DNA of 19,921 nucleotides from Bacillota bacterium (GTDB taxonomy: Bacteria > Bacillota_C > Negativicutes > CTSoil-072). Shown piece after piece: positions 3,160 to 19,060 of this stretch. Under the pieces are notes generated by a model. It saw only the letters and a list, made by a program, of their open reading frames with translations. It made no database searches and was not told where the DNA came from. Where the stretch lies: positions 1 to 19,921 of the forward strand of contig JAGFXW010000013.1 in assembly GCA_017861495.1 (NCBI GenBank), in the 5' to 3' direction. How positions within the stretch are numbered: position 1 is the first letter of the stretch; the number at the start of each line of letters is the position of its first letter. The position numbers and the translations under genes are program-made.

Positions 3160-4371
3160 TTATCCAAACAACCGCTTAAACTTGCTCATAACACCGCCCG
3201 GCGGTTCCGGCTTTTTTTCCTCGCCGCCGGCAATCATGGCTGCCAAAGAAAAAATACCTTTCGATACGCCCGCTTCAGGATGACTGGTGACAAACGGGAT
3301 GCCGCGGTTCACGGAATAAACAACGGTCCGCCCGTCGCTCGGCATCGCCGCCGCAAACGGATAGCGAAGGCTTTCTTGTACTTCCCGCCGTTCTAGTCCG
3401 CCCTCCGAATCGGCCCGGTTTAAAAACACCTTGATTTTGTCACGGCTATATTCCAATGACTCCATAATTTCCAGGCATAATTTTACATTTTTGATGGTCG
3501 GTAAATCCATCGATGTGATGACCAGAATTTGATCCGCCGCGTCCAACGTCGTCAACATTACATCATTGAACGTGGGTGACGTGTCAACAATAATATAATC
3601 AAACATTGTCCGCATCGTCGCCAAAATAGCAGTTATCTGCGCACTGCCGATCAACTCCGCCTGTTCAGGCCGGAGCGGCGCCGGCAAAAGGCTAACCAAT
3701 TCATTATAAGAGGAAAGATGGTTGGTGATCAGTTCCGCATCCATATGATCCGCTTCACGAACCAGGTCGGCAATGGTTGCCTTCGGTGCAACATTTAGAA
3801 ATAAAGCAACATCGCCAAACTGCAGATCGGCATCGACAATGCAGATCTTTGCTCCCGTATTGGAGGCCAGGGCAACGGCCAGATTACTGGCAATCGTTGT
3901 TTTGCCTATACCGCCTTTTGTGCTGAATATAGTAACGATTTTCCCTTGCTTGATAGGATCGGAAGCCGTTTGTGAAATTGTAATCCGTTTTTGGGCCAAC
4001 GAATATACCTGCTTGATGGCTTGCAACAATTCATCGCCGCTGAACGGCTTTACCATGTAATTCTTCGCGCCGGCAACCATCGCCCGCCGTAAATATTCCT
4101 GTTCGCCCTGTACACTCATAATGATAACATTGGCCTGCGGCACCTCGTCAGCCAATACCTCTGTGGCCGCAATTCCATCCATAACCGGCATATTGATATC
4201 CATCAAAATAATATCCGGCTGCAGTTCCTTCGCTTTTGCAATCGCTTCAGCAGCGCTTCCGGCTTGGCCAATAATCTTGACTTCCGAATGAAACTCCATT
4301 AGCTTGCTGATATTCTCCCGAATATCAGCCACATCATCAACGACCAGAACTCTTATCGCGTCTTTCTTCAT
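3160..4371 (-). CDS. cpaE: Response-regulator receiver fused to CpaE/TadZ-type MinD-like ATPase
   Basis: 403 residues, two domains. Residues about 5-125 form a CheY-like receiver with all key residues visible: acidic pair Asp12/Asp13, phospho-acceptor Asp58 in LMDINMPVMDG, Ser86 and Lys108 in KPF. Residues about 142-380 form a ParA/MinD-superfamily ATPase with a deviant Walker A, STKGGIGKTT (150-159, signature Lys152), an A' motif VDADLQFGD and a VDTSP switch region. The C-terminal tail is basic (KFKRLFG). CpaE/TadZ proteins place the Tad pilus machinery at the pole. In many relatives the receiver is degenerate; here it looks phosphorylatable, which makes control by the downstream DegS-like kinase plausible. 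The start overlaps the end of the secretin gene by 35 bases, with a GGAAGGGAAG ribosome site, so translation is coupled. It could also serve as a general secretion or localisation regulator. Confidence 0.9.
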   Translation of the reverse strand: MKKDAIRVLVVDDVADIRENISKLMEFHSEVKIIGQAGSAAEAIAKAKELQPDIILMDINMPVMDGIAATEVLADEVPQANVIIMSVQGEQEYLRRAMVAGAKNYMVKPFSGDELLQAIKQVYSLAQKRITISQTASDPIKQGKIVTIFSTKGGIGKTTIASNLAVALASNTGAKICIVDADLQFGDVALFLNVAPKATIADLVREADHMDAELITNHLSSYNELVSLLPAPLRPEQAELIGSAQITAILATMRTMFDYIIVDTSPTFNDVMLTTLDAADQILVITSMDLPTIKNVKLCLEIMESLEYSRDKIKVFLNRADSEGGLERREVQESLRYPFAAAMPSDGRTVVYSVNRGIPFVTSHPEAGVSKGIFSLAAMIAGGEEKKPEPPGGVMSKFKRLFG

Positions 4372-9363: not shown

Positions 9364-9379
9364 ATGCAGATATCTGCAT
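9364..9379. promoter_or_regulatory. Perfect 16-base palindrome at the IclR gene end / isomerase promoter
   Basis: ATGCAGATATCTGCAT is a perfect dyad that starts in the last base of the IclR stop codon and ends five bases before the extended -10 of the isomerase gene. The position over the -35 zone fits an operator. No T run follows it, so it is not a terminator. Confidence 0.45.
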
Positions 9380-10146
9380 TATAATAATGCGGATATCGCC
9401 GCTGCCGTCTTTCGCACTTCCTGAACAATTTCATTGCATAAGTCACCTTGCAGACGGGAAGTCGGCCCAGACAAGCTCAACGCCGCTGCAATGTGGTCCC
9501 GGCCCATAATCGGCGCCGCAATACAAGTCAGCCCCAGCTCCAATTCTTCATCATCCACGGCAAAGCCTTTCGCGCGGATCGCGGTTAATTCATCCAACAA
9601 TACGGACCAATCGGTAATGGTCTTGTCCGTAAATGCCGGCAGCGATGCGCCTTGAAATTTAGCCAACTGCTTGGGATCGCTAAATGCCAGCAAACACTTC
9701 CCTACCGCTGAACCATGGCAGGCGGATACCGATCCGACGCCAGGTGTAAAACTGAGGACCTGCTGGCTCTCGAATTTATCAATAATGATTTGCTGCGGAT
9801 ATTGTTCCGCCTGAGGATCCAGTACGGCAATATGGACTACCTCGTTGCACTTCTCCGATAAGATACGGGCCAGCGGGGCAGCAATATTTTGCAACGGCAT
9901 CTTTCTGCGCATCTGCATGCCCAAAGAATACAGCTTCAATCCCATCCAGTATTTCCCCGTTTCTGGATTTTGCTGGACAAATCCTTTATTTTCCAACGTC
10001 GCCAAGGTTCTGCACACCGTACTCTTATACATTCCTAATGCGGAACTGATCTGGGTAACACCCATTTCTTTCTCTTCTTGATGCAGCAACAGTAATATAT
10101 CGAGTGCCCTGGCAACGGATTGGATTGAGTCTCTATCTTCGCTCAT
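9379..10146 (-). CDS. IclR-family transcriptional regulator
   Basis: 255 residues. Residues about 8-60 form the IclR winged helix-turn-helix (SVARALDILLLLHQEEKEMGVTQISSALGMYKSTVCRTLATLENKGFV). Residues about 75-250 form the IclR effector domain, with the usual GSAVGKCLLAF block and the ELELGLTCIAAPI block carrying the conserved Cys. IclR proteins are dimeric repressors or activators, often of carbon-source catabolism, controlled by a small carboxylate or aromatic ligand. It sits between a DctA-type symporter gene upstream and the isomerase gene downstream on the same strand. A TGGAA-N5-TTCC dyad in its leader suggests autoregulation. The neighbouring transporter or the acyl-CoA genes are candidate targets, which is inference. 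The start is ATG at 10146, with an AGAGAGGGAG ribosome site upstream. Confidence 0.93.
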   Translation of the reverse strand: MSEDRDSIQSVARALDILLLLHQEEKEMGVTQISSALGMYKSTVCRTLATLENKGFVQQNPETGKYWMGLKLYSLGMQMRRKMPLQNIAAPLARILSEKCNEVVHIAVLDPQAEQYPQQIIIDKFESQQVLSFTPGVGSVSACHGSAVGKCLLAFSDPKQLAKFQGASLPAFTDKTITDWSVLLDELTAIRAKGFAVDDEELELGLTCIAAPIMGRDHIAAALSLSGPTSRLQGDLCNEIVQEVRKTAAAISALL

Positions 10147-10491: not shown

Positions 10492-11799
10492 TTACCGCAT
10501 CATTTCTTTGTTCGATGGACTAACTGCAAGATTGTCCGGCCCATTGCCAAGGGTTTTGTGCAATTGCTCCATATCCAGTTCTTTTTCCCATTTGGAAACA
10601 ACAACCGTAGCAACGCCGTTGCCGACCAGATTGGTCAGCGCCCGGCCGGTTGACATGAACCGGTCAATCCCGAAAATCACCGCCAATGCAGCGACTGGAA
10701 TTCCAGGTATCACGGACAAGGTCGCCGCCAACACAATAAATCCGCTGCCGGTCACACCAGAAGCCCCTTTCGATGTCAGCAGCAGGACAGCAATAATCGT
10801 CAGCTCCTGCACCAAGGTCAGTTCGATATTCGTCGCTTGCGCCAAAAAAATGGCTGACATGGTTAAATAAATCGAAGTTCCGTCCAGATTAAACGAATAG
10901 CCGGTAGGGATAACAAGCCCAACAACCGGTTTGGAACACCCCAGCCGTTCCATTTTATCGATCATGCGGGGCAATACGCTCTCCGAGGAAGACGTTCCCA
11001 ACACAATCAGCAGTTCTTCTTTAATGTAGGCAATAAACTTCAGCAAGCTGAAACCGGCCCACTTTGCAACCGGGCCCATTACAATAAAAATGAAAATGAT
11101 ACAGGTAATATAAAACACGCCCAGCAGCTTGCCCAATGGCCCCAGCGACGCAATGCCGTATTTCCCGATGGTAAAGGCCATCGCGCCAAATACACCCAGC
11201 GGCGCCACTTTCATGATAATATCGACAATCTTAAAGAACGCATGCGAGACGTCGCTGATCAGCAAATAGACATTTCGCCCCTTTTTGCCCATCATCGACA
11301 AAGCCGCGCCGAACAGCAGGGAAAACAACAGTACCTGCAAAATATCCCCCTTGGCAAATGCATCGATTACCGTCGACGGAATGATATTCATAAAAAAATC
11401 CAGCGTGCTTTGGGATTTGGCTGCGGTTGTATACGCAGAAATCATCTTGGTATCCAATGCCGATACATCGACATTCATCCCCACGCCAGGCTGGAAAATT
11501 TTCACAGCCACCAAGCCCATAATCAAAGCCAGCGTAGTAATGACCTCAAAATAGATCAATGCTTTCGCCCCGACACGGCCGACTTTTTTCATATCATCCA
11601 TGCCGGCAATACCGGTAACAATCGTACAAAAAATAATCGGGCCAATGATCATTTTGATCAGCTTAATGAACGCATCCCCCAGCGGCCGCATACTTTCGCC
11701 GACAGACGGATAATAGTGGCCTAATGCTACACCAACAATAATCGCAACAAATACCTGGAAATGGAGGGATGTAAAAAATGATTTTTTCATGAATGGCAT
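10492..11799 (-). CDS. dctA: C4-dicarboxylate:cation symporter, DctA type (DAACS family)
   Basis: 435 residues from ATG at 11799. It imports succinate, fumarate or malate with protons or sodium across the inner membrane. The sequence resembles E. coli DctA along its length: N-terminal [18 protein letters not shown], then [22 protein letters not shown], the [12 protein letters not shown] re-entrant loop, [16 protein letters not shown], and the [19 protein letters not shown] substrate-binding block; eight transmembrane segments plus two hairpins are expected. GltP-type glutamate transport is the main alternative, but the match to DctA in these blocks is closer. Three in-frame ATGs occur (11805, 11799, 11784); AGAGAGGA abuts the first, so 11799 with six-base spacing is preferred. 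It has terminators on both sides and forms its own unit, between the acyl-CoA genes and an IclR-family regulator. Confidence 0.9.
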
Positions 11800-11975
11800 T
11801 CCCATTCCTCTCTGTTATTAATTACGGATCATAAATAAAATATGTTTTTCACGCATTATTCATAGAAATAAAATATCACAAACCCATGGAAAAAGAAAGC
11901 TTTTTTCGCCAAACGCTTCGATAAAATTAACTACAGATGTTTATTCCACCGAAACATCCATGCGTAAAGAGGGTA

Positions 11976-12033: not shown

Positions 12034-12888
12034 TTAATTGTAATCGTAAAATCCTTTACCCGTCTTGCGCCCTAAATATCCGGCCTGTACCATTTTTTTC
12101 AACAACGGGCATGGACGGTATTTCGGATCGCCAAAACCATTGAACAGAACTTCCATAATATACAGGATCGTATCGTTGCCGATCAAATCCGATAAAGCCA
12201 ACGGCCCCATTGGATGATTAAAACCAAGTTTGGCTACATTGTCAATATCCTCCGCATTGGCAACCCCTTCAGCCAAAGTGTAAATTGCTTCATTAATCAT
12301 AGGGATCATGATCCTGTTGCCGACAAAACCGGGAGAATCGTTTACTTCAACCGGGGTTTTGCCTAACGCTTCCGCCAACGCTTTAATTGTGGCGAACGTT
12401 TCCGAGCTTGTTGCCAATCCTTTAATGACTTCAACCAATTTCATTACCGGCGCCGGATTAAAGAAATGCATGCCGATGACTTGCGCCGGACGTCTCGTAA
12501 ACGACCCTAGTACCGTAATCGGCAACGAAGAGGTATTACTCGCTAAAATGGTTTTCGGCGGGCATAATTTACAAAGAGTTTCAAAAATCCCCTTTTTCAA
12601 CTCAATATTTTCGACGGCAGCCTCAACAACTAAATCGACGTCGCAAGATTTCTCATCTAATTCAACAACGCCGGAAATCCGTTGCATAATTTCATCCCGG
12701 GATTCTTGTGTCATTTTCCCCTTTTCAACCATTTTATTAAGGTTTTTGGAAATTCCAGTAATTCCGCGTTGGACAAACTCATCTTTGATATCGCGGACCA
12801 CCACTTCCAAACCGCCCTGCGCCATAACCTGGGCGATGCCGCTCCCCATTTGACCTGCCCCAATAATCAATACCCGTTGAATAGCCAT
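12034..12888 (-). CDS. hbd: 3-Hydroxybutyryl-CoA dehydrogenase
   Basis: 284 residues, the usual length for clostridial Hbd. It interconverts (S)-3-hydroxybutyryl-CoA and acetoacetyl-CoA with NAD(P). The Rossmann glycine motif GAGQMGSG is at 10-17, the acid [11 protein letters not shown] block near 89-99, the substrate Ser/Asn region SNTSSLPIT near 117-125, and the catalytic His141 in GMHFFNP. The C-terminal dimerisation/substrate domain begins near [19 protein letters not shown] and ends with [12 protein letters not shown]. The ribosome site GGGAGGG lies eight bases before ATG. It is the last gene of the CoA-transferase, thiolase, dehydrogenase operon, 102 bases after the thiolase, and is closed by a strong terminator. 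Together with thiolase it either degrades C4 acids or builds butyrate precursors; the operon context favours the former. Confidence 0.96.
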
Positions 12889-12990: not shown

Positions 12991-14172
12991 TTAGATCCGT
13001 TCAACCACCATGGCAATTCCTTGTCCGCCACCGATGCACAAAGTCGCCAGCCCGTGTTTGCCATTTCTCGCCTCTAAAGCATGCAGCAACGTTACTAAAA
13101 TCCGTGCGCCGCTGGCGCCAATCGGGTGGCCGATTGCGGTTGCGCCGCCATTGACATTCACCTTGTCCATCGGGAAATTCAATTCCTTGCCTACCGCCAA
13201 GAATTGCGCCATAAACGCTTCATTGGCTTCTATCAAATCCAAATCTTCAACCTTCATCCCCGCTTTAGCCAACGCTTTCCGAGTGGCAGGGATCGGCCCG
13301 GTACCCATGATGCTGGGCTCAACGCCTGCCGACGCATAAGAAACAATTCTGGCGATCGGTTTCACGCCTAATTCTTTGGCCTTCTCGGCCGACATAATGA
13401 CAAATGCCGCTGCGCCATCGTTAATCCCTGAAGCATTGCCGGCCGTAACCGTCCCGTCTTTTTTGAAGGCAGGTTTCAGACAGCTTAGCGTTTCAGGCGT
13501 CGTGCCGCGCCGTGGATATTCATCGGTATCGAATACCGTATCGCCTTTTTTCCCTTTGATGATTACCGGCACAATTTCTTTTTTAAACGCGCCGCTGTCG
13601 ATAGCCGCAATCGCTTTGTTTTGCGACTCGGCCGCCTCTTTGTCCTGCTGCTCGCGGGTAATTCCGTATTGCGCTGCTACGTTTTCCGCAGTGATCCCCA
13701 TATGGTAATCATTAAACGCGCACCATAAGCCATCCTGGATCATCACATCGACAACCTTGGCATTGCCCATGCGATACCCCCAGCGGGCTTTGCTTTCCAA
13801 AACATAGGGAGCATTGGTCATGCTTTCCATTCCACCCGCAACTACCACGTCGGCGTCGCCGGCTTTGATAGCCTGGGCGGCCATGGCAACCGCTTTCAGA
13901 CCAGATCCGCACACCTTGTTGATCGTCAGGGAAGGAATTTCCACCGGCAAGCCCGCTTTTACAGACGCCTGGCGGGCAGGGTTTTGTCCTAATCCAGCCT
14001 GCAAAACATTCCCTAAAATTACTTCATTCACATCATCATTGGAAATACCGGCCCGTTTTATCGCTTCCTGGACAACAATACTTCCCAGTTCCGGAGCGGA
14101 TAACGAACTTAAACCACCATTAAAACTTCCTACCGCGGTTCTCACTGCACTCACTATCACTACTTCACTCAT
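12991..14172 (-). CDS. atoB: Acetyl-CoA acetyltransferase (thiolase II)
   Basis: 393 residues from ATG at 14172. It cleaves acetoacetyl-CoA to two acetyl-CoA, or condenses them. All catalytic residues are visible: nucleophile Cys88 in [12 protein letters not shown], His349 in [10 protein letters not shown] and Cys379 in LCIGGGQG. The QNPARQA and GGMESMT blocks are typical of biosynthetic-type bacterial thiolases. A longer in-frame start at 14247 would add 25 residues with no family counterpart and has no ribosome site; ATG at 14172 has GAGGGTGG upstream and gives the standard N-terminus [14 protein letters not shown]. It lies 144 bases after the CoA-transferase stop, a gap that holds an inverted repeat (14200-14255), and 102 bases before hbd. 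Confidence 0.96.
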
Positions 14173-14199
14173 ACATACACCACCCTCATTAATATTGAG

Positions 14200-14255
14200 A
14201 AACGGCGATAAACTTTCCCGTTTCCGGTATTTGACGACAAAAGCCATCGCCGTTT
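14200..14255 (-). other. Intercistronic inverted repeat upstream of the thiolase gene
   Basis: AAACGGCGAT (14200-14209) and ATCGCCGTTT (14246-14255) are perfectly complementary ten-base arms around a 36-base loop. The base of the stem is about 12 bases before the thiolase ribosome site. There is no following T run long enough for a normal terminator. It could stabilise or segment the operon mRNA. Confidence 0.45.
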
Positions 14256-14316: not shown

Positions 14317-15864
14317 TTAAATCTTCAAGCCCATTGGTTCATCACGGAACAGTCTGGCATCCATTAATTTTAAGTCCGGAGCAACGATCACCGGAAACTC
14401 AATGAACGCCAACACATCTTTTTCCAAGTCAACGCCCGGCGCAATCTCGGTCAAAACCATTCCTTTTTGCGTCAGCTTAAACACGGCGCGTTCGGTAATG
14501 TACAGGACCGGCTGGTTGACCTTGCGGGCATAGTCGCCGCTGAAGGTAATTTGTTCCACGTGCTTCAGGAACTTTTTCACTTTGCCTTCCTGCAAAATAT
14601 TCAATTTTCCGTCTTTCACTTCCACCTTCAAACCGCCGGCGGTAAAGGTGCCGCAGAACACAACTTTTTTGGAATTCTGCGTAATATTGATGAAACCACC
14701 GCAGCCGGCAACACGGCCCTTAAATTTGCTCACGTTAATATTCCCGGCCTGGTCTGTTTCGGCCAAACCCAGGAACGCGATATCGACTCCGCCGCCGTCA
14801 TAAAAATCGAACTGGTACGGTTGATCCAGGATCGCTTCCGCGTTCGTCGAAGCGCCAAAACTTAATCCGCCGGCAGGGATGCCGCCAATCGGGCCGGCCT
14901 CAACCGTAAGCGTCATCAAATGGCCTACGCCTTCCTCATTGGCAACCATGGCAACGCCCTCCGGCACACCGATCCCCAAGTTTACCGCTGCATTCGGGAT
15001 CAGTTCCATGGCAGCCCGGCGGGCAATGACTTTCCGCTCGCTCAACGGCATCGACGGTATCGCGCTGACAGGTACGCGGGTTTCGCCGGAATACGCCGGA
15101 TTGTACTGTTCCGCAAAAGTCTGCATGTGCAATTCGGGCGGAGCGACAACGACATAGTCAACGATCAGTCCCGGCACCTGCACGCTCATCGGTTTCAACG
15201 AACCATTGGCAACAATTCGTTCGACCTGAACAATAACAATCCCGCCGGAATTTTTAGCGGCCTGCGCAATCGATAAAATCTCCCCGGTAATTGCTTCTTT
15301 CTCACAGGAAATGTTGCCTTTTTCATCGGCGCTGGTTCCCCGGATCAATGCTACCGTAACCGGAAATGCCTTATACCATAGCCATTCTTCGCCGCCTAAT
15401 TCAACTACTTCCACCAAGTCTTCCTTTGCTGCGTTTCCGATTCTTCCGCCCTCTAACCGCGGATCCACAAACGTATTCAGACCGACTTTGGTTATGACGC
15501 CCGGCCGATGGCCCGCAACCTCACGAAACCACTCCGACAGTGTCCCTTGGGGGAAATTGTACGCTTCGATGATGTTCTCGTGAGCAAGGTTGCCGAGTTT
15601 CGGGGCAAAATTCCAATGGCCGCCGATGACCCGTTTCGTCAATCCCGCATAGCCAAAATGGTTCATGCCTTTTTCCTTGCCGTCGCCTTGCCCCGCACAA
15701 TAAATCAGCGTCAGGTTACGAGGCGAATCTTCATTTTTAAACCGTTCTTCAATCGCTGCGGTCAACGCTTCCGGATGTCCATTTCCAACAAAACCGCTTG
15801 TTCCTATTGTGTCTCCATCCTTGATCAATTTGGCGGCCTCCGCCGCGGTGATAAATTTTGCCAT
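14317..15864 (-). CDS. Acyl-CoA:acetate/3-ketoacid CoA-transferase (Pct/YdiF type)
   Basis: 515 residues, a single-chain family I CoA-transferase in which the alpha and beta halves are fused. It moves CoA between an acyl-CoA (usually acetyl-CoA) and a short acid such as propionate, butyrate, 3-hydroxybutyrate or acetoacetate. The alpha half occupies about 1-255 ([31 protein letters not shown] at the start, [14 protein letters not shown] near 128-141). The beta half holds the catalytic Glu322 in [15 protein letters not shown] and the [15 protein letters not shown] block. The length matches C. propionicum propionate CoA-transferase and E. coli YdiF, unlike two-subunit AtoDA. The ribosome site GAGGGGG lies seven bases before ATG. 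It is the first gene of the operon with thiolase and hbd, behind a sigma-54 promoter. The substrate cannot be told from sequence alone; the neighbours suggest a C4 acid. Confidence 0.93.
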
Positions 15865-15959
15865 TCTTTTTCCCCCTCAAAAATGTCTATTATTTTTGAT
15901 TTAGCAACCGGCAAGTTCATGCACTAACGTATGGCATTTTTCTGTTCATCTTTTTCTTA

Positions 15960-15976
15960 TGCACATTCAGTGCCAA
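15960..15976 (-). promoter_or_regulatory. Sigma-54 (-24/-12) promoter of the CoA-transferase operon
   Basis: On the minus strand TTGGCACTGAATGTGCA carries the invariant GG and GC exactly ten bases apart and matches the YTGGCACGRNNNTTGCW consensus at all fixed positions but two. Transcription would begin near 15949, giving a leader of about 85 bases. The 402-base gap 15865-16266 also holds the half-site cluster (16023-16114), an AT-rich inverted repeat (16175-16227) and the terminator of the gene upstream; no coding sequence is seen in it. Confidence 0.8.
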
Positions 15977-16022
15977 TACAAGAAGGCTGATTTTAGTTAT
16001 ATTCTCTTGATTTTTTCCTGTT

Positions 16023-16114
16023 TAAGACATGTCTTATCCGACAACCAAACGATATTTCCGACACTTTTGGATTATAGTCAGACACTTTTTTTGCACTCGA
16101 CAACTCCGGTTGTC
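16023..16114. promoter_or_regulatory. Putative enhancer: cluster of GACA/TGTC half-sites upstream of the sigma-54 promoter
   Basis: GACA occurs at 16026, 16040, 16060, 16081 and 16099, and TGTC at 16030 and 16111. Four longer copies read TCCGACAACC (16037), TCCGACACTT (16057), TCAGACACTT (16078) and CTCGACAACT (16096), spaced 20, 21 and 18 bases, close to two helical turns. Perfect dyads TAAGACATGTCTTA (16023-16036) and GACAAC-TCCG-GTTGTC (16099-16114) flank them. The block is about 75-165 bases upstream of the predicted start, the normal place for sigma-54 activator sites. Confidence 0.65.
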
Positions 16115-16174
16115 TTATTTTTCACAATTAATATCTGGATAATTCAGGAAATGTGTACGATGTGAGAAAATTAA

Positions 16175-16227
16175 TTACAATCGAATTATTTTATATTTTT
16201 TAAAAATACAGAATAATTCGATTGTAA
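16175..16227. repeat. Long AT-rich inverted repeat
   Basis: The arms at 16175-16190 and 16212-16227 (core ACAATCGAATTATT) are perfectly complementary over 16 bases. The inner sequence continues to pair (TATTTTT against AAAAATA), giving a hairpin of about 25 pairs with a few mismatches. It directly adjoins, and shares a few bases with, the hbd-like gene's terminator. Its role is unknown. Confidence 0.7.
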
Positions 16228-16266: not shown

Positions 16267-17220
16267 TTAAAAGGTCATCTTCTTGTCTTTCTGCAGCCAC
16301 TCCAAAAGGACATCTTCGCGAGTCCGTTTGATTTTAGCCAATTGTTCCGGTTCCCAGTCATACATCCCCGTGCCGGTTTTCGCGCCAAGGTTCCCTTTTG
16401 CCGCCGGTTTGCTCAACAACGGCGATACTCCGTGGCTGTCGCACAAATCTTTGTTCAAATACGAAGAAATATTGTAGAAAACATCCAACCCGCCTAAATC
16501 AGCGCTTTCGATTGGACCGCTGGTTGACAGCCGGCGTCCAAGACTGTACTTCATGGTCGTATCGACCGCCTCTTTCGTGGCAATCCCGTTCTCCACAATA
16601 TACAAAGCTTCCCGCAGCAACGCAAATTGCAACCGGTTGCCAATAAACCCGAGCGCTTCTTTTAACAAAGCAACTGGTTTTTTGCCAATTTTTTCCATTA
16701 ATTTCCAAGTAGTGTCAACCGTTTCCTGCGCGGTATGTTTTCCCGGCACCACTTCTACCAGCGGCACGAGGTGCGGCGGATTCCAAAAATGCGCAACGAC
16801 AAAGCGGTCTTTTTTCGCCAGTTTTTCCGCAACAGCCGTCGGACTTAAGCCAGAGGTATTTGTCGCAAAAATCGTTTCCGGCTTGCAAAGTGTTTCCATT
16901 TTTGCAAAAAGATCTTGTTTTATGGCCAAATCTTCGGCCACCGATTCGATAACGAAATCAGCATCCACTGCCGCCTCTTCCAAAGTGGTTACACCTTTGA
17001 TCCGAGCCAAAATGGAATCAATGTCTTTCGGATCGACCAAACCATGCTGTTGATACGTTTCCAACCCGGCTTTGATCCCTTTGAAACCGCGTTCAATGCT
17101 GCTTTCCGAGCGGCCAAACATCCGTACATTATACCCGGCCATTGCAAACATCAACGCTGTGCCGAAACCCATGGTACCGGTACCCAGGTTACAAATATTT
17201 TTAATTTCTTCCATTTGCAT
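16267..17220 (-). CDS. Divergent 3-hydroxyacyl-CoA dehydrogenase family protein
   Basis: 317 residues from ATG at 17220. The fold is that of 3-hydroxyacyl-CoA dehydrogenases: NAD motif NLGTGTMGFG (11-20), ESVAEDLAIKQ block near 92-102, NTSGLSPT near 121-128, catalytic His144 in AHFWNPPHLVPLVEVVPG, and a helical C-terminal domain with ALGFIGNRLQFALLREALYIVENG. It differs from the hbd in this window by GTGTMG for GAGQMG, by FWNPPHLVP for FFNPAPVMK and by a longer C-terminal tail, traits shared with carnitine/beta-hydroxyacid-type dehydrogenases. The substrate may therefore not be simple 3-hydroxybutyryl-CoA. A longer frame to 17304 lacks a ribosome site and family support; 17220 has GGGAG upstream. 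It follows the AtoE-type transporter by 143 bases, probably in the same sigma-54 unit. Confidence 0.88.
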   Translation of the reverse strand: MQMEEIKNICNLGTGTMGFGTALMFAMAGYNVRMFGRSESSIERGFKGIKAGLETYQQHGLVDPKDIDSILARIKGVTTLEEAAVDADFVIESVAEDLAIKQDLFAKMETLCKPETIFATNTSGLSPTAVAEKLAKKDRFVVAHFWNPPHLVPLVEVVPGKHTAQETVDTTWKLMEKIGKKPVALLKEALGFIGNRLQFALLREALYIVENGIATKEAVDTTMKYSLGRRLSTSGPIESADLGGLDVFYNISSYLNKDLCDSHGVSPLLSKPAAKGNLGAKTGTGMYDWEPEQLAKIKRTREDVLLEWLQKDKKMTF

Positions 17221-17277
17221 GTTAAAAATCACTCCCGTTCTGATTCGTATATTATGGTTTATTCCACATTTGGAGCG

Positions 17278-17363: not shown

Positions 17364-18773
17364 TTAATTAATCATCGGCGCAACATAAGGCATCGTTTTT
17401 GACAAGAAGTACAGCAAAATCAATACGGTCGGGGTCAAGAAAATGAGCTGCAAAACAGAGAACCCCGCCAAATCCCGCGCTTTCATTCCCGAAAGGCCAA
17501 GAAGCGGCAGCATCCAGAACGGATTAATAAAGTTCGGCAATGCTTCAGCAGCATTGTATACCTGAACCATCCAGGCCAGATTCACTTTCAATTGGTTAGC
17601 GGCTTCCAATACATACGGAGCTTCTACAACCCATTTGCCGCCGCCGGACGGCAGGAACAGGCCCATAATCGCCGAGTAAGCACCAACAACAACCGGCAAA
17701 GAACCTTGTGTTGATACGGAAACGAAGAATTTTGCCAATAAATCATTTAAACCGGATGCCATTAATACACCAAAAATACCGGCATACAAAGGGAATTGGA
17801 GGAGAACGCCGCCCGTCATCGGAACAGACTTGCCTGCCGCTTTCAGGAAGCCTTTCGGAGTCCAGTGCAGCAGCATCCCCACGATGAGGAACATAAAGTT
17901 ATACGTATTGAGGTCAAGCATAGACATCGCGCCTTTGGTTGTGAACAGGAAAACCAAGTAACCAAAACCCAATAAACAAATAATAATCGTAAGGATCGGG
18001 CTGTATTCCAAATATTCGCCGGGAACTTTCGGTTTGCCCAAATCCTCTTGTTCGTCCGCAAATTGAATTCCGGCCATTTGAGCCGTTTTTGCTTTATCGG
18101 CGTTCGGCGTCGAAGCGTAACAAATCCAAATGGCAACGACGGAAACAACAACAATCATAACGAGGTTTTGCCAGGTGAAAAGAGTTAAACTCAGCGGTAT
18201 TTCACCACTAATCTTATACAGAGAAGCAGGGATAGAAGCTTTCGTCGCCATTAGCAACGCGGCTGAGGACGAGAAACCCAGCGCCCAAACACTGCCTAAA
18301 CCCAAATACGCAGCGGCGCCAATTGCCCGATAGTCTACTCCGGGAACACGCTTGAGAACTTCTTTCATCAATGATCCGGCAAAAATAAGACCAAAGCCCC
18401 AGCTAATCAGCGAAGCAACGATAGACACAAAACCGATATACGCTACGGCGACCTTCGGTGTTTTGGGGAAAGCAGCCATTGACACAATCAATCGTTTTAC
18501 CGGGGGGGCAACTGCCACGACATAACCGCCGATAACGATAAAGGCCATTTGCATAGTAAAGGGGATTAAGCCCCAAAACCCTTTACCAAAGTCGATAGCG
18601 ACCTGGTTGGGAGTCCGCCCCAGCGCCAATGCGGCTGCGCATACTACTGCCACTGCGATTAACGCAAAAACGTAGGCATCAGGAAACCAGCGTTCACTCC
18701 AGTCAGCCAGCGCCATTCCGGTCCGCGCCATTACGCCGGCTTCTTCTTGTTTTGGTTGACGTTGATCAGCCAT
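17364..18773 (-). CDS. atoE: Short-chain fatty acid transporter, AtoE family
   Basis: 469 residues from ATG at 18773, hydrophobic throughout, with about 11-13 membrane segments expected. AtoE-family proteins carry short-chain fatty acids such as butyrate, acetoacetate or hydroxybutyrate across the inner membrane. Family features: N-terminal WSERWFPDAYVFALIAV, GFWGLIPFTMQMAFIVIGGYVVA, ISWGFGLIFAGSLMKEV, FPLYAGIFGVL, and the diagnostic LPSGGGKWVVEAPYV followed by QVYNAAEALPNFINPFWMLPLLG. An in-frame GTG at 18785 gives a protein of 473 residues but has only one base between AAGGAG and the codon; ATG at 18773 has a rather long 13-base gap, so the start is uncertain by four codons. A sigma-54 promoter lies about 110 bases upstream. 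With the two dehydrogenases, CoA-transferase and thiolase nearby, it supplies the uptake step of the presumed pathway. Confidence 0.93.
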   Translation of the reverse strand: MADQRQPKQEEAGVMARTGMALADWSERWFPDAYVFALIAVAVVCAAALALGRTPNQVAIDFGKGFWGLIPFTMQMAFIVIGGYVVAVAPPVKRLIVSMAAFPKTPKVAVAYIGFVSIVASLISWGFGLIFAGSLMKEVLKRVPGVDYRAIGAAAYLGLGSVWALGFSSSAALLMATKASIPASLYKISGEIPLSLTLFTWQNLVMIVVVSVVAIWICYASTPNADKAKTAQMAGIQFADEQEDLGKPKVPGEYLEYSPILTIIICLLGFGYLVFLFTTKGAMSMLDLNTYNFMFLIVGMLLHWTPKGFLKAAGKSVPMTGGVLLQFPLYAGIFGVLMASGLNDLLAKFFVSVSTQGSLPVVVGAYSAIMGLFLPSGGGKWVVEAPYVLEAANQLKVNLAWMVQVYNAAEALPNFINPFWMLPLLGLSGMKARDLAGFSVLQLIFLTPTVLILLYFLSKTMPYVAPMIN

Positions 18774-18834
18774 ACAATAATTCACTCTCCTTATTCTTTA
18801 TTGTGCATTTTTTCACTACAGCTTACGCAAAGGC

Positions 18835-18883: not shown

Positions 18884-18900
18884 TGCAAATCATATGCCAG
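18884..18900 (-). promoter_or_regulatory. Sigma-54 (-24/-12) promoter of the atoE-type transporter gene
   Basis: On the minus strand CTGGCATATGATTTGCA has GG and GC ten bases apart, a full CTGGCA -24 block and a full TTTGCA -12 block. Transcription would begin near 18872. It sits directly downstream of the terminator of the preceding gene, so atoE does not rely on read-through. Confidence 0.8.
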
Positions 18901-18971: not shown

Positions 18972-19035
18972 TTTTTGCAAAAACGCAATCACAAGGTCCA
19001 AATATAGCTGCGCATAGTGTGCATTTTTTCATGCA
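18972..19035. promoter_or_regulatory. Dyads upstream of the atoE sigma-54 promoter, candidate activator sites
   Basis: TTTTTGCAAAAA (18972-18983) is a perfect palindrome; TGCGCA is at 19009-19014 and TGCAT-N6-ATGCA at 19020-19035. They lie about 100-165 bases upstream of the predicted atoE transcription start, where an activator would bind. The GACA/TGTC motif of the other sigma-54 promoter is absent. Confidence 0.3.
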
Positions 19036-19060
19036 ACTGACTAATTTTTGCGCAGTTCGC

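Follow-up and report, generated by a model that had tools for sequence, protein, structure and literature searches.

The window analysed here, the whole stretch of 19,921 nucleotides, carries on its minus strand an operon for a CoA-transferase, an acetyl-CoA acetyltransferase (thiolase) and a 3-hydroxybutyryl-CoA dehydrogenase (hbd), together with genes for a short-chain fatty acid transporter and a second 3-hydroxyacyl-CoA dehydrogenase (hbd2) (Table 1). A predicted sigma-54 promoter and an array of repeats sit on the same strand between hbd2 and the CoA-transferase gene, and from its sequence this stretch looks like a switch that turns on genes for breaking down or making four-carbon acids. 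As bacterial gene switches go, it is well resolved but ordinary. The nearest relative found is the locus L001 from the metagenome-assembled genome (MAG) CTSoil_073 (Bacillota; referred to below as G001), in which the CoA-transferase is 83% identical. An IclR-type regulator (9379-10146) and a sodium:dicarboxylate symporter (10492-11805) are encoded downstream of the operon, and the L001 operon is likewise trailed by a symporter of the same family; neither is connected here with the array. A long inverted repeat, TTACAATCGAATTATT...AATAATTCGATTGTAA (16175-16227), lies between hbd2 and the promoter, adjoining a hairpin at which hbd2 transcription probably ends; the repeat is not intact in L001.

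Table 1. Genes, promoter elements and predicted binding sites of the window
Feature	Position	Strand	Remarks
3-Hydroxybutyryl-CoA dehydrogenase (hbd)	12034-12888	minus	above NCBIfam cut-off NF004474
Acetyl-CoA acetyltransferase (thiolase)	12991-14247	minus	above NCBIfam cut-off TIGR01930; true start probably inside the listed ORF
CoA-transferase, first gene of the operon	14317-15864	minus	PF01144
Sigma-54 -24/-12 element TTGGCACTGAATGTGCA	15960-15976	minus	GG-N10-GC, 11 of 13 consensus positions; belongs to the CoA-transferase operon
Inner dyad GACATGTC	16026-16033	none	overlaps the proximal site; ACATGT kept in L001
Proximal activator site (predicted) TGTCGGATAAGACA	16030-16043	minus	TGT-N8-ACA, 69 bases upstream of the -24 GG
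Distal activator site (predicted) TGTCGG	16058-16063	minus	89 bases upstream of the -24 GG
Third repeat TGTCTG	16079-16084	minus	110 bases upstream of the -24 GG; 111 in L001
Outer dyad GACAAC-N4-GTTGTC	16099-16114	none	only the GACAA arm (16110-16114) kept in L001
Second 3-hydroxyacyl-CoA dehydrogenase (hbd2)	16267-17238	minus	L001 orthologue with 3HCDH domains
Short-chain fatty acid transporter (atoE type)	17364-18785	minus	L001 orthologue PF02667
Second sigma-54 element CTGGCATATGATTTGCA	18884-18900	minus	before the transporter/hbd2 operon; L001 has TTGGCATGGTAATTGCA at the matching place
AtoC-type sites (19016-19037, 19035-19056)	19016-19056	none	upstream of the second sigma-54 element

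The sigma-54 promoter and its upstream repeats

An earlier note on this DNA had proposed that the CoA-transferase/thiolase/hbd operon is preceded by a sigma-54 promoter and, further upstream, by a phased array, and the element itself, the register of the repeats and their conservation all support this proposal. The -24/-12 element is present on the minus strand with the spacing then described and is kept in L001, which has TTGGCATCAAACATGCA at the matching position. It lies (15976-15960) about 95 bases from the ATG of the CoA-transferase gene, and we infer a transcription start for the operon near 15949. Taken alone, the element is not rare: TGGCACN5TTGCW with at most one mismatch occurs twice in the window against 0.73 expected, and two or more occurrences were reached in 33 of 200 shuffles. 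The other occurrence is the second promoter-like site, 18900-18884. Across 35 CoA-transferase leaders, the window included (CoA-transferase identity of at least 68%, match starting by residue 4, at least 120 bases of upstream DNA, leaders with identical last 150 bases merged), TGGCA-N6-(T/A/G)TGC was found within 300 bases upstream in 25; the other ten have no such match there, several of them standing directly behind another gene. Plasmid records held no match to the leader. No sigma-70-type start was found on the minus strand between 15850 and 16300. Sigma-54 is encoded in G001, the genome of the relative.

Seven GACA/TGTC half-sites had been reported upstream of the element and exactly seven are counted, at 16026, 16030, 16040, 16060, 16081, 16099 and 16111, spanning 16026-16114. 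This number was reached in none of 20,000 shuffles of the stretch (mean 0.96), in which blocks of two bases were moved, a procedure that only approximates a dinucleotide shuffle. Of the 115-base stretches, 27 contain seven half-sites, and every one of these covers this same cluster. Four extended copies, at 16040, 16060, 16081 and 16099, have the spacings of 20, 21 and 18 claimed for them, and both perfect dyads are present, one around 16026-16033 (AAGACATGTCTT) and one around 16099-16114 (GACAAC/GTTGTC). With these positions and spacings as given, and with the shuffles, the sequence observation holds in all its counts. An IHF site had also been suggested to mark a bend. The match exists but is at chance level, with 29 IHF-like sequences in the window at up to one mismatch against 24.7 expected, and by eye it has no aligned counterpart in the L001 leader; the bend was rejected on these two grounds.

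The L001 leader aligns poorly with that of the window except over the -24/-12 element, three TGTC(G/T)G repeats, GACAA, ACATGT and the ATTGTGAAAAA stretch. Conservation in a related genome, which the promoter proposal had called for, is thus found for both the element and the half-site repeats, and their register is conserved: the distances from TGTC to the -24 GG are 110, 89 and 69 bases in the window and 111, 90 and 69 in L001, a spacing of about two helix turns that is kept while many of the intervening letters change. In the proximal site, moreover, TGT is paired in a dyad with an ACA arm that stands about 60 bases from the -24 GG. Among the 35 CoA-transferase leaders, the array was found only in the window and in L001, and the other 33 are without it. 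The role of the outer dyad (16099-16114) is unsure. Beside the array, ATTGTGAAAAA (16118-16128) is kept in L001 with the GACA that extends the element over 16111-16128. This longer element is a good fit to neither the activator matrix nor the AtoC matrix described below, and it bears a faint likeness to a Rex operator.

Association of the array with a CBS-PAS activator

We searched 380 genomes of the class of L001 for the strict pattern TGTCGG-N12-16-TGTCGG-N45-75-TGGCA-N7-TGC, which was found in seven of them; a reversed-pattern control gave none. Six of the seven matches lie within about 115 bases of the gene for a CBS-PAS-AAA+-Fis activator. The remaining match is L001's own CoA-transferase promoter, and G001 carries the activator on another contig (C43), where its gene has an array of its own. 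A relaxed TGTCKG pattern gave ten matches in nine of the 380 genomes (reversed control 0), the additions being the C43 promoter, an activator-linked promoter in G030 and one match in G099. Eight of these ten are within 270 bases of a gene for an activator with the helix-turn-helix (HTH) signature HR(S/A)TLY, and one is the L001 CoA-transferase promoter; the G099 match falls inside an open reading frame, in a genome with no activator match at E <= 1e-140. With three candidates scored per genome, 14-16 of the 380 genomes have the activator, and the hypergeometric chance that all seven strict genomes fall among them is 2-5e-11, ignoring kinship. The activator has the architecture CBS-CBS-PAS-PAS-AAA+-Fis. 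Pfam recognizes CBS, PAS, Sigma54_activat and Fis-type HTH domains in it, and no PrpR_N domain.

The geometry of the sites could be compared in a similar way. A site matrix was trained on eight activator-linked promoters, with the CoA-transferase promoters of the window and L001 held out. In the eight, the proximal site lies 69-72 bases and the distal site 90-93 bases from the -24 GG; the third repeat was seen only in the window and L001 among the ten promoters compared. The held-out window promoter had a pair score of 19.3, which no control reached: the highest pair scores were 17.0 for 1,436 sigma-54-like positions from 79 other loci and 12.6 for 20,000 shuffles. As single sites, the window repeats rank 3, 7 and 9 of 39,808 positions; they are weaker than the trained sites, and only the proximal one has both the TGT and the ACA arm. 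An array was found within 300 bases of the gene for 13 of 15 HR(S/A)TLY activators versus 0 of 13 activators with the signature HRSGFY. In this count two of 30 loci, L229 and L237, were removed by a frame filter (L229 has TGTCGG palindromes by eye, 160-181 bases out instead of 70-90, and the activator helix of L237 reads QRSAFYQK), and L224, which has one TGTCGATGCCGACA palindrome, and L236 were counted as array-less. The 70/90 register is found in 8 of 16 HR(S/A)TLY activator loci; it is absent from L224, L227, L228, L235 and L236, and in L229-L231 repeats are present but 150-181 bases out. The window, with TGTC(G/T)G at 69 and 89 bases from the -24 GG and a spacing of 20, fits it. Eleven HR(S/A)TLY rows grouped with full support in a tree; on midpoint rooting L232-L235, which are also HR(S/A)TLY, stood across the root with the HRSGFY rows, and the HR(S/A)TLY activators may not be a single clade.

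Scored on the plus strand, the outer dyad resembles a terminator hairpin, and some TGTCGG palindromes beside activator genes run into T tracts, where they may double as terminators. It is nevertheless extremely improbable that the array arose by chance or as a terminator-hairpin by-product: the shuffles, the background loci and the reversed patterns all disfavour this, and in G322-G324 divergent starts flank the array, a setting in which an activator gene would not be expected to have its terminator. Another possibility is that the -24/-12 element is real and the array serves some other regulator, such as a different sigma-54 activator (for example, of PrpR type), a repressor or a redox regulator, or that two unrelated regulators bind there. 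G001 has 34 matches to the sigma-54 activator domain, and both the outer dyad and the L001-conserved ATTGTGAAAAA misfit the activator matrix. We regard another regulator as unlikely, given that the two TGTC(G/T)G repeats stand at an almost fixed distance from the sigma-54 element in nine promoters of eight genomes as well as in the window, and that eight of the nine adjoin the gene of a CBS-PAS activator.

Since the strict matches adjoin the activator gene and L001's own genome carries it, the array most likely binds the CBS-PAS one-component activator and not AtoC. On these sequence comparisons, we consider it highly probable that the array is the binding site of a CBS-CBS-PAS-PAS-AAA+-Fis one-component activator at a sigma-54 promoter, with the activator encoded elsewhere in the genome. 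The suggestion that an AAA+ activator acts from outside the window therefore stands, with the array linked to this CBS-PAS-AAA+-Fis protein and the gene on a separate contig in G001; the window's own genome presumably carries the gene as well. A literature search of titles and abstract openings found, among the matches listed, no TGTCGG sites for a CBS-PAS activator.

In G001, the neighbours of the activator gene encode an acyl-CoA dehydrogenase, a GntP-type permease (24.0 bits, cut-off 22.5), a CoA-transferase and a crotonase. G040 has open reading frames of the same lengths and order (379, 467 and 518 codons), of which only the CoA-transferase was confirmed, and further along a crotonase, two ETF subunits and a flavoprotein with an ETF-QO domain. 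G001 contains ten CoA-transferase matches. At six further loci of this genome (L206, L207, L208, L210, L211 and L212) each CoA-transferase is accompanied, at a distance of up to about 4.1 kb, by a separate sigma-54 activator gene, which suggests that the organism habitually pairs its CoA-transferases with activators of their own.

AtoC-type sites and the transporter operon

The earlier note's finding did not include a second sigma-54 promoter, which stands before the transporter/hbd2 operon with AtoC-type sites upstream of it. With a matrix trained on other genomes, these sites rank second and third of 19,900 window positions; rank 1 (position 3624) falls inside a gene. At the matching transporter promoter of L001 the AtoC-type sites rank 1 and 4 of 21,527. 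The matrix was built on 12 sites already matching the motif TGYGCA-N6-TGCRCA, which occurs at 9 or more of its 12 positions in 12 of 16 promoters linked to AtoC-like regulators. These 16 were hand-picked, with L173, L185 and L186 unscanned and further sigma-54 matches in the same loci unused.

The gene order of L001 is atoS-atoC-nfnA-nfnB-atoE-hbd2-CoA-transferase-thiolase-hbd1. The window ends inside nfnB, so that atoSC would be expected about 1.5 kb beyond it if this order is kept. In related loci the AtoC-like regulators are 51-75% identical to that of L001, and atoSC stands beside transporter, hbd2, thiolase or CoA-transferase genes in 15 of 16 loci with such a regulator, the sixteenth being cut by a contig end. 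The L001 AtoC scores 565, with the equivalog cut-off at 714. A third sigma-54 element, TTGGCATGGATTTTGCA, with 13 of 13 consensus positions, lies between atoC and nfnA in L001 (L001:4343-4359); its counterpart would fall outside the window. From its position, nfnAB may also be under sigma-54 control.

This arrangement raises the question of whether AtoC, encoded by atoSC five genes upstream in L001, also binds the array, so that one two-component system would drive both operons. Besides the L001 gene order, three other genomes speak for it: in G012, G033 and G034 atoSC is divergent from the CoA-transferase gene, with TGYGCA-N6-TGCRCA palindromes between them in G012 and G034. We nevertheless find AtoC at the array very unlikely. 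The HTH of the L001 AtoC is nearly identical to those of genomes that use TGYGCA sites, and no TGYGCA-N6-TGCRCA site of this quality was found before the window's CoA-transferase gene, where the best AtoC-type position ranks only 35th of 19,900 (62nd of 21,527 in L001). TGTCGG arrays, moreover, adjoin activators in G028 and G038 whose best AtoC match, with 27 of 76 and 27 of 70 candidates scored, covers only residues 136/139-454 and is without the receiver domain. The suggestion that AtoC is the activator of the array is thus not borne out, the array tracking the CBS-PAS activator instead. From the ranks of the sites within the window, AtoC most likely runs the neighbouring transporter operon rather than the CoA-transferase operon, and the transporter-hbd2 operon, with its own sigma-54 promoter, is probably under AtoSC.

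Proposed control of the operon and comparison with known systems

We propose that the CBS-PAS activator would sense an intracellular signal through its CBS/PAS part and bind the TGTCGG sites, phased by 21 bases on one face of the DNA at about 70, 90 and 110 bases upstream of the -24 element. The bound protein would then loop to the sigma-54 polymerase and open the CoA-transferase-thiolase-hbd promoter. In relatives, the activator presumably drives the adjoining acyl-CoA dehydrogenase/permease/CoA-transferase/crotonase operon and, because the same activator adjoins that operon there, it would in the L001 lineage coordinate two separate operons. Together these could cover a complete C4 beta-oxidation (or reverse) route. 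On this functional reading thiolase and hbd would complement the steps of the activator-side operon, and shared control would thus be explained.

It is possible, and we put it forward tentatively, that the CoA-transferase-thiolase-hbd operon has been rewired. In Pelosinus and Sporomusa relatives the CoA-transferase orthologues also stand behind sigma-54 promoters, but the sequences upstream of these promoters are different (TAGACA-type by eye), and in several of these genomes an HRSGFY activator, in some without the CBS part, is encoded within about 12 kb of the CoA-transferase. Of the 34 sigma-54 activators of G001, the HTH could be read in 30; it is HR(S/A)TLY in one and HRSGFY in none. The sister HR(S/A)TLY CBS-PAS activator may have captured the operon in trans through a new TGTCGG array at its usual register. 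Two unlinked operons would then between them provide every step of C4 acyl-CoA beta-oxidation, with the transporter staying under AtoSC, a reading drawn from two leaders and one metagenome-assembled genome. If true, it would be a small, clean case of an activator paralogue taking over the target of another. More generally, the co-occurrence and the geometry seen in many genomes connect an orphan enhancer array with one particular group of activators. This gives a testable DNA-binding rule, TGTCGGNNCCGACA-like sites two turns apart, some 70 and 90 bases from the -24 element, which would apply to the CBS-PAS sigma-54 activators of L001's class. Two adjacent sigma-54 circuits of C4-acid metabolism can also be told apart, one run by a two-component system (AtoSC) and one by a one-component activator.

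Among the best 25 of 52 matching NCBIfam models, none is an equivalog above its cut-off for the activator. The top model is PrdR (NF041552), to which the PAS-AAA+-Fis part aligns with 580 bits, below the cut-off of 795, over a best stretch (residues 244-689) that misses the CBS part. A parallel may lie in XcgR, CrbR and YctR, which a study limited to Clostridiales (Nie et al. 2019; PMC6615313) describes as sigma-54 activators predicted to control CoA-transferase/permease/bcd/etf operons. The XcgR target given there, cotY-gntT-bcd-etfAB, is similar in make-up to the operon that adjoins the present activator, which may be a counterpart of XcgR. The motifs of XcgR and CrbR in that text consist of TGT and ACA with 10-12 bases between them, YctR having a distinct motif, whereas the sites found here are TGTCGGNNCCGACA-like, with TGT-N8-ACA in the best cases (N7 in some). 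Sigma-54 control of a set of short-chain-acid CoA-transferase and transporter genes is also described for AtoSC of E. coli (PMC3118216). The AtoC site reported there, GCTATGCAGAAATTTGCACA, matches the site type at the second promoter of the window, and the two atoD sites match TGYGCA-N6-TGCRCA at 9 and 10 of 12 positions. The likeness to E. coli thus lies at the transporter promoter, whereas the CoA-transferase promoter carries a different type of site.
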